Positions 25,291 to 48,478 of a DNA stretch of 64,000 nt are shown piece after piece. Each line of letters starts with the position of its first letter. The stretch's first letter is position 1. This DNA comes from Gemmatimonadota bacterium (GTDB taxonomy: Bacteria > Gemmatimonadota > Gemmatimonadetes > Gemmatimonadales > Gemmatimonadaceae): the NCBI GenBank assembly GCA_027622655.1, contig JAQBYI010000003.1, forward strand, positions 1 to 64,000, given 5' to 3'. The translations under genes and the position numbers were made by a program. The notes under the pieces were generated by a model that was given only the letters and a program-made list of their open reading frames with translations, ran no database searches and was not told where the DNA came from.

Positions 25291-26553
25291 ATGCTTCCCG
25301 GAACCACGCCGGTCGCCGCCGCAGGGGCGAGCACCCGATCCGCCCCCGCGCTCGATCCCGCGCTCGATCCCGCGCTCGATCCCGCGCTCGATCCGGCGTA
25401 CTTGGCCGCGCCGCCCGCGCAGCGGGAACGGCTCGTTTCGCTCGACGTGTTCCGTGGGCTCAGTGTGGCCGGGATGCTCCTGGTGAACAATCCCGGGAGC
25501 TGGAGCGCGATCTATCCGCCGCTCGGCCACGCCGCATGGCACGGCTGGACGCCGACTGACCTGATCTTTCCGTTCTTCCTCTTCATCGTCGGGATCACGA
25601 CACACCTTTCGCTCACCACTCGAAGGGCGCGTGGCGACGACGACGCGGCGCTCCGACGGCAGATCGTCCGACGAGGCGCGCTGATCGTACTCTTCGGCTT
25701 CCTCGTTGCAACGTTTCCGTACACCCCGCTCAGCCGTTTCGCCAACGTCAGGATTCCGGGCGTACTCCAACGCATCGGCATCGTGTATGCATGCGCGGCT
25801 CTCCTCACGCTGCGCACGACACTCAAACAGCAGGTCGTGATCGTCGTCGTACTCCTGTACGGCTACTGGTTCGCGATGACGCTAATCCCGGTTCCCGGCG
25901 CCGGCGGCGGAATCGGAGCGAATCTCCTCGATGAACCGTCGCGCACGCTCGCGGCCTGGGTCGATCGCGCACTGCTGAACGGCCACCTCTGGTCCGGCTC
26001 CAGGACGTGGGACCCGGAAGGGCCGCTCTCGACCATTCCCGCGATTGGAACGGCGATGCTCGGCGTTCTCGCCGGCCGATGGATCGGCACCGACCGCCCG
26101 CTCCACGCGCGGCTCTCCGGGCTCTTTGCAGCGGGTGCCCTCGCGCTGGTGGCAGGGTTGATGTGGCATTGGTCGTTCCCCATCAACAAGGGACTCTGGA
26201 CGAGCTCCTACGTCCTCTTTTCCGCTGGCATGGCCGCTGTCACCCTTGCGACAGTTACCTGGATCATTGATGCGAACGGCGTTACCTGGTGGACCCGTCC
26301 GCTCGTCATATATGGTATGAACCCGATGGTCGCATTCGTCGGGTCCGGAATCATGGCACGGATTATTTATTCCCTCTGGAAGGTCGAGTATGCCGGTAGC
26401 TCTGTTCCGGTACAGGCTGTGCTCTACCAGTCGGCCTTTGCCTCGTGGCTCGATCCGCGCAACGCTTCGCTCGCTTTCGCCCTCGCCTTCGTGTTACTCT
26501 GGTACGGGATACTCTGGGCCCTATGGCGACAAAAACTCTTCCTGAAAATCTGA
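25291..26553 (+). CDS. NagX / HGSNAT-like membrane acyltransferase
   Basis: The 420-residue polytopic protein carries the COG4299 signature: 'RLVSLDVFRGLSVAGMLLVN', 'WTPTDLIFPFFLFIVGITTH' and 'RIPGVLQRIGIVYACAALL'. These proteins are relatives of human heparan-alpha-glucosaminide N-acetyltransferase and are predicted to move acetyl groups across the membrane onto sugars. About ten helices follow the N-terminal ~55 residues, which include an (LDPA)n repeat encoded by a 12-bp tandem repeat. Its end overlaps the dacB start by 31 bp, so the two are translated together and both probably act on cell-wall sugars. Substrate not determined. Confidence 0.85.
   Translation: MLPGTTPVAAAGASTRSAPALDPALDPALDPALDPAYLAAPPAQRERLVSLDVFRGLSVAGMLLVNNPGSWSAIYPPLGHAAWHGWTPTDLIFPFFLFIVGITTHLSLTTRRARGDDDAALRRQIVRRGALIVLFGFLVATFPYTPLSRFANVRIPGVLQRIGIVYACAALLTLRTTLKQQVVIVVVLLYGYWFAMTLIPVPGAGGGIGANLLDEPSRTLAAWVDRALLNGHLWSGSRTWDPEGPLSTIPAIGTAMLGVLAGRWIGTDRPLHARLSGLFAAGALALVAGLMWHWSFPINKGLWTSSYVLFSAGMAAVTLATVTWIIDANGVTWWTRPLVIYGMNPMVAFVGSGIMARIIYSLWKVEYAGSSVPVQAVLYQSAFASWLDPRNASLAFALAFVLLWYGILWALWRQKLFLKI
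25348..25395 (+). repeat. 12-bp tandem repeat in coding sequence
   Basis: The unit GCGCTCGATCCC is repeated four times without gaps (25348-25359, 25360-25371, 25372-25383, 25384-25395, the last ending in G). It encodes Ala-Leu-Asp-Pro four times in the N-terminus of the membrane acyltransferase, ahead of its first helix. Copy-number changes would preserve the frame. Confidence 0.92.
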
Positions 26554-45978: not shown

Positions 45979-47976
45979 TCAGGGACGCGCCGGGGCCAAC
46001 GGCAACACGATGTGCGAGGGCCAGGTGGCGCTGTGCTGCACCGCGATGTCGGTCGTGACCATACGCCGGTTCTTGCCCAACGGGTCGCCGGTGTTGGGAT
46101 TCACGTCGAACCGCGGGAAGTTGCTGCTCGAGATGTCCACGCGGATCCGATGCCCCTTCTTGAACACGTTCGCGGTTGGGAAAGGGTCGATGGTGAACTC
46201 GTACACGCGCCCCGGTTCGAGGAGCACCTCGTGGTCTCGCGTTGCGCGATAGCGACCGCGGATAATCGCGTCGGTGATGTTCAGATCGAATCCACCCGGC
46301 CACGCGTCGCTCGGCGGATAGACGTCGACGAGCTTCGCGGTGAAGTCGGCGTCCACCGTCGAGGCCGACGCGTAGAGCACGACCTTGATCGGGCCAATCA
46401 CGGTCATGTCCTCGGCGAGCGGTTCAGTCTGGAAGACGACGACGTCCGCGCGCGTGCGCAGCGGCAGGAATGGCGCCTTGGAGGGCGGGAAACGCGGATC
46501 CTCGCGCTGGTCGTACGCGCCATCCTTGAGGCGCGCGGAGGCGCCACCACCAATGGTGGGAACCGGACTGCGAGGATCGAAGGTGTAGGTCGTGGACGAG
46601 GCGGACGTGGTCGGCTTCGTGGCGGAGAGCGATCCGTCGGCGTGAAAGTAGTACGGCACATTCCGCGTGCCGGCGATCGGCCACTCGCCCGCATTCAGCC
46701 AGTAACCGCCATGGAAGAGTCGGCCGTTCTCGTCCCTGTGTCCGTCGCCCGTCCCCATCACGAAGACGCGCACCGCGGCGTCCTTCTCGGCGCCACTCGC
46801 TCCGCCCTTCAGGAAGTGATCGAACCACTTGAGATGGAAGTCGGTCGCGAAATCCACGATCGCCGCATCGGGCCCGTACGCAACATCGCCCGCGTACGTG
46901 AGGTGATTGCCGCCATGCGTCCAGGGGCCAACGAGGATGCGCTGCGGTGATTTCTTGAGGCGGCTCAACTCGACGTAGTTCTTGAAGGTGCCGGCGAGGA
47001 AGATGTCGTACCATCCACCCACCTGCAGCATCGGGATGTCCGCGGTCTCGGGGTAATGCTCGTCCCAGGCGAGCATCGGGTCCTTCCAGAACGCGTCGTA
47101 GTCGGCGCGTTCAAAGAAATCCATGTACCAGCCTTCGTACTCCGGCACAACCGAGAGCGGATTGAGGCCCCGACGGAACGGCTGCACGCTGTACCAGTCC
47201 TCGACCTTCTCTTTCTCCATCAACGCTTTCACCGCGGGCGATCGCGCGTCGGCGAGCATCTGCGACCAGGCCCAGGTGAGCTGGCGACCCATCTCGTAAG
47301 TGCCGCGGAAGCGCACGCCGTGGTCCCAGCCGTTGGACATGCCGCCCATGTTGAGCACGAGCGACTTGAGCGAAGGTGGAGAAAGTTGCGCGGCCCCTGC
47401 CTCCATGTGGGCGGAGAACGATGTACCCCACATCCCGACGGCGCCGTTCGACCAGGGCTGGCGCGCGAGCCACTCGACCGCGTCGAAGCTGTCGGTGGCG
47501 TCCACGGGCTGCACCTTGAGGAAGATCCCTTCCGACTTGTAGCGCCCGCGCGTGTCCTGGACTGCGACCACGTAGCCACGCTCAGCGAACCACTGCGCCT
47601 GCGAGTGCAGCTGCGACTTCCCGTACGGCGAACGGTTGAGCAACACCGGGAAGCGCTCGTTCAACGGGACCCCGTTGCGCGCGGGACGGAAGATGTCTGT
47701 CGCCATCCGCTTGCCGTCGCGGGTGGGCATCATCAGGTCGCGCTCCACCAGCACGGCGTCGTAGCGCTTCGGCGATCCGACCCAGTCGGCAGGCGGCATG
47801 CGGTGCTGCTGTGCGTGCACGGCGACCGGCGCTACGCCGATAACGAGCGTGACACCGATCGCGACACCGATCGCGACACCGATCGCGACACCGATCGCGA
47901 AGAGAACCGGCGCGGCGACGGCGATGAGCGCCGGGGAGCGGCGGGGAGCGCAGTGACTCAACGTTGCTGGAAGCAT
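45979..47976 (-). CDS. Exported CocE/NonD-type hydrolase (X-Pro dipeptidyl-peptidase family)
   Basis: The 665-residue protein has an alpha/beta-hydrolase core: 'MMPTRDGKRMATDIFRPA' near the N-terminus, nucleophile Ser in 'VGMWGTSFSAHMEAGA', oxyanion region 'VLLNRSPYGKSQLHSQAQ', and catalytic Asp/His later ('GPWTHGGNHLTYAG'). A C-terminal jelly-roll domain (X-Pro dipeptidyl-peptidase C-terminal type) follows. Members act as aminopeptidases, cocaine esterase-like esterases or acylases. The export signal is odd: its hydrophobic core is a repeated AIGV block and is over 30 residues long, so the protein may stay membrane-anchored. It ends 28 bp from the CitMHS gene. Confidence 0.9.
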   Translation of the reverse strand: MLPATLSHCAPRRSPALIAVAAPVLFAIGVAIGVAIGVAIGVTLVIGVAPVAVHAQQHRMPPADWVGSPKRYDAVLVERDLMMPTRDGKRMATDIFRPARNGVPLNERFPVLLNRSPYGKSQLHSQAQWFAERGYVVAVQDTRGRYKSEGIFLKVQPVDATDSFDAVEWLARQPWSNGAVGMWGTSFSAHMEAGAAQLSPPSLKSLVLNMGGMSNGWDHGVRFRGTYEMGRQLTWAWSQMLADARSPAVKALMEKEKVEDWYSVQPFRRGLNPLSVVPEYEGWYMDFFERADYDAFWKDPMLAWDEHYPETADIPMLQVGGWYDIFLAGTFKNYVELSRLKKSPQRILVGPWTHGGNHLTYAGDVAYGPDAAIVDFATDFHLKWFDHFLKGGASGAEKDAAVRVFVMGTGDGHRDENGRLFHGGYWLNAGEWPIAGTRNVPYYFHADGSLSATKPTTSASSTTYTFDPRSPVPTIGGGASARLKDGAYDQREDPRFPPSKAPFLPLRTRADVVVFQTEPLAEDMTVIGPIKVVLYASASTVDADFTAKLVDVYPPSDAWPGGFDLNITDAIIRGRYRATRDHEVLLEPGRVYEFTIDPFPTANVFKKGHRIRVDISSSNFPRFDVNPNTGDPLGKNRRMVTTDIAVQHSATWPSHIVLPLAPARP
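47851..47898 (-). repeat. 12-bp tandem repeat inside the signal peptide
   Basis: On the plus strand the unit GACACCGATCGC is repeated four times (47851-47862, 47863-47874, 47875-47886, 47887-47898). On the coding strand it encodes repeated Ala-Ile-Gly-Val in the hydrophobic core of the hydrolase leader. Each unit adds four hydrophobic residues and keeps the frame. Confidence 0.93.
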
Positions 47977-48135
47977 GGCGGTCCTTCCCTGAGACGACGA
48001 GAGCGAAACGGACGGCTGGCGTCAGACGCCACTCAAAGTATCGGCCGGAAGGGCATCGCGCTCCCGCACGCGGTTCCAACTATTCGCCTGTCCCCTGAGT
48101 GCGGGCTCGGGATCTGTTCGACCGCTCGTGCCATC

Positions 48136-48255
48136 CTAGGACGACTGCTGCTCTTTCTCCGCGCCCATCAGGGGACGGTAGAAGATCAGTGCGTTGCGAT
48201 CCAGGTCGCAGGGAGCAAACTCGCGTGTTTCCCATGGCATATCGCGAATGCCGTT
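48136..48255 (-). pseudogene. 3' stub of a VOC/glyoxalase-family gene
   Basis: The last ~39 codons before the TAG at 48136 read 'GIRDMPWETREFAPCDLDRN' and 'ALIFYRPL', which is the standard C-terminal strand-turn of bleomycin-resistance/glyoxalase (VOC) proteins (compare xxPWGxREFxxxDPDGNxLxF). The expected ~80-100 upstream residues are absent; the DNA before it shows no coding sense in any frame. The stub lies next to GNAT, DUF1028, TfoX and DinB-type genes, a common small-protein neighbourhood. Confidence 0.6.
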
Positions 48256-48478
48256 AGGGCTGCACTCCGGAGTTCTTTGGGAGGGTAAGAAACGTCCAAG
48301 AGCCGGCCTTCGGGGTCGCCGCCGGCCGGAACAGTTTCGCTCTAAAACCAATCTCAGACGCGGGTTTGGTCATTATCGCACGGTATCGTTGATCGGCGTT
48401 TGATTACTGCACTGCGCGGTCGCACAACGATGTCGGCTTCCCCACTCGCGCGGCAAGTCTGCCTAGCAACCGCTCGAA
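48256..48478. other. Non-coding stretch
   Basis: No gene, repeat family or structured RNA is recognisable here. It contains a GC-rich imperfect inverted repeat (GCCGGC...GCCGGC around 48303-48327). Together with the VOC stub and the 159 bp upstream of the hydrolase start, this makes a ~500-bp region without an intact gene. Confidence 0.5.

Follow-up and report, generated by a model that had tools for sequence, protein, structure and literature searches.

The export leader of a CocE/NonD family hydrolase in a Gemmatimonadota genome contains a perfect tandem array of a 12-bp unit, and we consider it fairly probable that this array is a recent, species-specific coding minisatellite born by slippage in the signal-peptide core, one of many in the same genome. 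The array, its reading frame, its absence from the orthologs, the many similar arrays elsewhere in the genome and the purifying selection on the enzyme were all observed directly, and the origin and consequences of the array are discussed below in conditional terms. The window is the whole stretch of DNA that was analysed, 64,000 nucleotides in length, and the features at the locus are as follows.

45979..47976, minus strand: coding sequence of a 665-aa hydrolase of the CocE/NonD family (Peptidase_S15 + PepX_C), from Pfam and NCBIfam matches
47982..47990, minus strand: Shine-Dalgarno-like AGGGAAGGA, 5 nt before the ATG, read from the sequence
47812..47976, minus strand: leader, residues 1-55, ending VHA before QQH (putative cleavage site)
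47818..47937, minus strand: nonpolar run of 40 residues (residues 14-53) containing the array, read from the translation
47851..47900, minus strand: perfect 12-bp tandem array, 4.2 copies of GCGATCGGTGTC, giving Ala-Ile-Gly-Val x4 at residues 27-42

Results

Structure of the array

Tandem Repeats Finder (TRF), run on the window, reported period 12, 4.2 copies and 100% matches at 47851-47900, with the four full units occupying 47851-47898; the minus-strand unit GCG ATC GGT GTC encodes Ala-Ile-Gly-Val in frame, and the copies are identical at synonymous positions too. TRF, the translation and the placement at residues 27-42 thus confirm the first-pass annotation, which had described four 12-bp Ala-Ile-Gly-Val units in the hydrophobic core of the hydrolase leader. 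The longest perfect periodic run is 50 bp in the array and at most 20 bp in 20 dinucleotide-preserving shuffles of the window, and the array is therefore not a chance match. When unit pairs were searched as 24-mers with up to 3 mismatches, no second site was found in the genome itself, and a search of the same genome with the 33-aa core gave no further match. Among 179 genomes of the family, the exact 24-mer is confined to this one, all other matches having 2-3 mismatches. A DNA hairpin favouring slippage was considered and rejected, as the predicted folding of the array is barely stronger than that of shuffled versions (z -1.03 and -1.16). An open frame on the opposite strand (47056-48288, plus) reads the array as Asp-Thr-Asp-Arg repeats, and is probably spurious because it overlaps the conserved hydrolase.

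The array shares one property with slipped-strand phase-variable contingency loci, a tandem repeat within the gene. The on/off frameshift that a change of unit number causes at such loci does not arise here, since 12 bp make four codons; the earlier proposal that gain or loss of whole units keeps the frame is borne out.

The host enzyme and its orthologs

Both Pfam PF02129 (Peptidase_S15) and PF08530 (PepX_C) scored above cut-off in the 665-aa protein, and the score for NCBIfam TIGR00976 (CocE/NonD) was 382.2 bits, where the cut-off is 66.3. Among solved sequences, cocaine esterase is the closest (230.8 bits for the best domain, hydrolase residues 78-661), and this match settles the fold class of the hydrolase. 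S186, D324 and H354 fall opposite the Ser, Asp and His stretches of CocE, do not vary across alignments of 14 and 15 sequences, and form what we take to be the CocE catalytic triad; the protein has Ser, Asp and His conserved at the CocE triad places, as is characteristic of S15 hydrolases. The nearest ortholog is 85% identical (86% over the 610 codons compared), with dN 0.089 and dS 0.70, indicating that the enzyme is kept by purifying selection.

The search of the 179 family genomes returned 26 matches at E <= 1e-250 in 25 genomes, the own genome included. The array is absent from all 25 other ortholog copies found in this search, and it was also missing from the leaders at 22 of 24 loci of a second ortholog set, which partly overlaps the first and left out L025, whose match begins at residue 293, and L031, a relative with 36% identity. 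The array is thus specific to the species. The leader of the nearest ortholog is of the ordinary kind, and the mature sequence of that ortholog starts AQPHRMPPADW, which matches AQQHRMPPADW here.

Anatomy of the leader

The leader has the hallmarks of a Sec signal peptide, namely RR at 12-13, the nonpolar run at 14-53 and V-H-A before Q56; the putative cleavage site is placed from an A-x-A-like motif and an AQ common to the nearest ortholog. The core of a cleavable Sec signal peptide is short, about 7-15 residues. The uncharged nonpolar run here spans 40 residues in all and 26 (24-49) between prolines 23 and 50, and the longest such run in the leaders of the 25 other ortholog copies is 8-22 residues. 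The description of the core in the first-pass annotation as over 30 residues long accordingly holds if the prolines are counted (40) and fails for the stretch between them (26). As judged from sequence features, both the length and the hydrophobicity of the leader fit a long inserting segment such as a signal anchor.

A different explanation is that the leader has been converted to a stable signal anchor which remains uncleaved, holds the enzyme in the inner membrane and pairs enzymes through a glycine zipper. Its glycines at 29, 33, 37 and 41 do form a GxxxGxxxGxxxG pattern between beta-branched residues, and the core is long and highly hydrophobic, where the nonpolar runs are short in 25 of 25 other ortholog copies. 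However, the c-region APVAVHA before QQ contains a helix-breaking proline and looks cleavable, with the AQ shared by the nearest ortholog, and a GxxxG motif alone is no proof of pairing, according to an excerpt of PMC8307134. Nor does the AlphaFold2 model of the whole protein lend support: its mean pLDDT is 64.1 and the mature part is partly confident, but residues 1-58 lie below 50 and the model is uninformative for the leader. We regard a glycine-zipper anchor as unlikely, although less so than the other alternatives considered here. The regular glycine spacing would be an interesting by-product of the expansion, one that could allow uncleaved leaders to pair.

Hydrophobicity and copy number

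The first-pass annotation had proposed that repeat gain or loss could switch the hydrolase between secreted and membrane-anchored forms, so that a low copy number would give a cleaved and released enzyme and a high copy number a membrane-anchored one. We modelled leaders with 0-6 units, for which the nonpolar run is 24, 28, 32, 36, 40, 44 and 48 residues and the core between the prolines 10, 14, 18, 22, 26, 30 and 34 residues. On the Kyte-Doolittle and Hessa scales, which are not a cleavage predictor, the best Hessa sum over the same series is -0.37, -1.08, -1.70, -2.30, -2.36, -1.91 and -1.91, and the Kyte-Doolittle maximum stays within 2.48-2.78. On these scales, then, adding units up to about 3-4 copies raises hydrophobicity, and further units up to 6 leave it roughly level. 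The leader as it stands has a Kyte-Doolittle maximum of 2.69 and a best Hessa sum of -2.36; for the 17 ortholog leaders, out of 25, with a plainly readable start, the corresponding ranges are 1.17-2.01 and +0.88 to +6.72. The leader is therefore probably anchor-like at every copy number and more so with the array, to judge from these scales.

According to an excerpt of PMC11579918, segments of 14 and of 17 leucines are told apart by the signal peptidase complex of yeast, and a longer h-region is a general feature of signal anchors. The between-proline core of 10, 14, 18, 22 and 26 residues for 0-4 copies straddles these two yeast lengths, which speaks in favour of a switch, but with 4 copies present, losing or gaining one unit (22 or 30 residues) would leave the core on the anchor side; by this count any switch point would fall between 1 and 3 units and would not adjoin 4. 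The cited cleavage figures moreover come from a eukaryotic peptidase and may not hold for bacterial LepB. The Hessa sums at 3, 4 and 5 copies also argue against a switch, as does the value already reached without any unit. Because hydrophobicity stays roughly level between 3 and 6 copies, gaining or losing a single copy at 4 probably causes no change of localisation, and the c-region and putative cleavage site are identical at any copy number.

Arrays across the genome

We surveyed 641,520 of 3,144,997 bases (20%) of the genome, which is in 115 contigs, for perfect arrays with a minimum of 30 bp and 2.5 copies; the sample consists mostly of contig starts, which are themselves array-rich, and it contained 46 such arrays, whose period is 12 in 17 cases, 9 in 10, 15 in 8 and 6, 10, 11 or 18 in the rest. 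Period-12 arrays occur at 2.7 per 100 kb in this sample and at 1.0 in eight relatives (7 in 715,319 bases). By rough gene calls, 8 of the 46 arrays lie among the first 60 codons of a gene, 12 among the last 60 and 14 in between, with 12 unclear; the genes concerned are of all kinds. This Gemmatimonadota genome is thus rich in coding arrays with units of 9-15 bp. At L037 1914-1992, an array of 6.6 perfect copies is the longest with period 12 in the first sample. Loss of mismatch repair as the cause of the many arrays was ruled out by the presence of MutS1, which was found above cut-off in this genome.

Among 498 rough genes, 161 have a leader- or anchor-like start, whose nonpolar runs make up 1.41% of the sample; with these rough gene calls there is no excess of arrays in leader nonpolar runs, as 0.65 would be expected by chance and 1 was seen. 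That arrays in leaders are no commoner than expected is a further point against the switch.

Contig ends point the other way in part. Within 200 bp of 61 contig ends we found 10 arrays, where 0.68 were expected from the interior density, and 3 of the 17 period-12 arrays lie at contig ends; arrays in this genome therefore disrupt assembly, whether through their length or through variation, and long or variable arrays would be expected to coincide with contig ends in this way. Two of the ten end arrays (contigs C19 and C100; L135 3-68 and L051 1-69) have one common 11-bp unit on opposite strands, so at least one of them broke assembly, and the contigs ending there are probably neighbours, as their shared unit suggests. 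A partner contig end was sought for two other end arrays and not found. The array at 47851-47900, however, was assembled through rather than broken, and the enrichment at contig ends therefore gives nothing direct on it.

Taken with the constant c-region, the flat hydrophobicity from 3-4 copies and the lack of an array excess in leaders, these results leave the proposed secreted/anchored switch unsupported; it is possible, with some evidence against it, and we rate it as quite improbable. A combined version, in which the array turned a cleavable signal into a glycine-zipper anchor and the slipping unit number sets how much hydrolase is released and how much is held and paired, seems to us equally improbable.

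An assembly artefact has also to be weighed, in which the assembler collapsed or expanded the repeat or the real number of units is a different one. The fragmentation into 115 contigs, a contamination value of 4.2 and the array-rich contig ends would be compatible with it. Nevertheless, the array of 50 bp is shorter than usual short reads, its flanks continue one open frame without a stop, and the contig continues 41 kb beyond the window's array (89,603 bases in all), so that an artefact is the least probable of the alternatives, and very improbable indeed.

A second array in the window

The window holds two equally long 12-bp arrays, 47851-47900 and the following one.

25345..25394, plus strand: second perfect 12-bp array, 4.2 copies, Ala-Leu-Asp-Pro, in another gene and near the protein start

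The protein with this second array has 420 aa, is membrane-protein-like and is without a Pfam match, and its orthologs are present in 18 of 18 genomes of the genus, the own genome included. No repeat was shown before the conserved DVFRG motif in the 17 other genus orthologs, some of whose stretches (such as L154, L157 and L162) are cut, ambiguous or in two frames. In four relatives (L149-L152), LDPAL or LDPVL occurs once at the matching place, and a single unit kept once in relatives indicates that a resident unit was amplified in this lineage. The Ala-Ile-Gly-Val array likely grew from a resident unit in the same way; the neighbouring codons ATCGGCGTAGCG, just downstream of it, already resemble the unit.

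Discussion

We propose that replication slippage, the presumed cause, amplified a 12-bp stretch within the low-complexity codons of the signal-peptide core, and that comparable slippage took place at many other sites in this genome. Units of whole codons would leave the reading frame of the hydrolase intact, and extra Ala-Ile-Gly-Val may be tolerated in the leader because the sole requirement on it would be hydrophobicity. The export leader would in this way have come to 55 residues instead of about 20-33, with a gain in hydrophobicity and in anchor character; it may be cleaved slowly or not at all, which may leave part of the enzyme tethered to the inner membrane. We infer both Sec export and the near-neutrality of the array. 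Against a near-neutral reading, the copies are perfect and their position coincides exactly with the core, a pattern that could equally be favoured by selection. A minisatellite born by slippage at this place would show how export signals can be lengthened without cost to the reading frame.

The hydrolase belongs to the same enzyme family as the known CocE/NonD hydrolases, such as cocaine esterase and the alpha-amino acid ester hydrolases, and it differs from them in its unusually long leader. The array itself resembles bacterial in-frame coding minisatellites and VNTRs in its short, perfect, whole-codon units, its restriction to one species and its place in a poorly constrained part of the protein. 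Unlike these, it sits in a signal-peptide core and is known from one copy number. Our search of the open-access literature found no tandem repeat in a bacterial signal peptide comparable to this array.

Two more distant parallels are instructive. Promoter tandem repeats of Mycobacterium tuberculosis cause phase variation by copy number, measured within populations, according to an excerpt of PMC12817950; the likeness lies in tandem-repeat copy number as the variable, which is a candidate only in our case, and the array here differs from those described there in being coding and known from one genome. The human CNDP1 leucine repeat, as described in part of PMC6271292, is likewise a tandem repeat within a signal peptide, and fewer leucines (5-Leu) go with low secretion. 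CNDP1 is a human gene with a leucine repeat and known alleles, whereas the units here are of 12 bp and one allele is known. If unit number did tune cleavage, the array would be a case of graded localisation control by a bacterial coding minisatellite, and thus a counterpart of human CNDP1.
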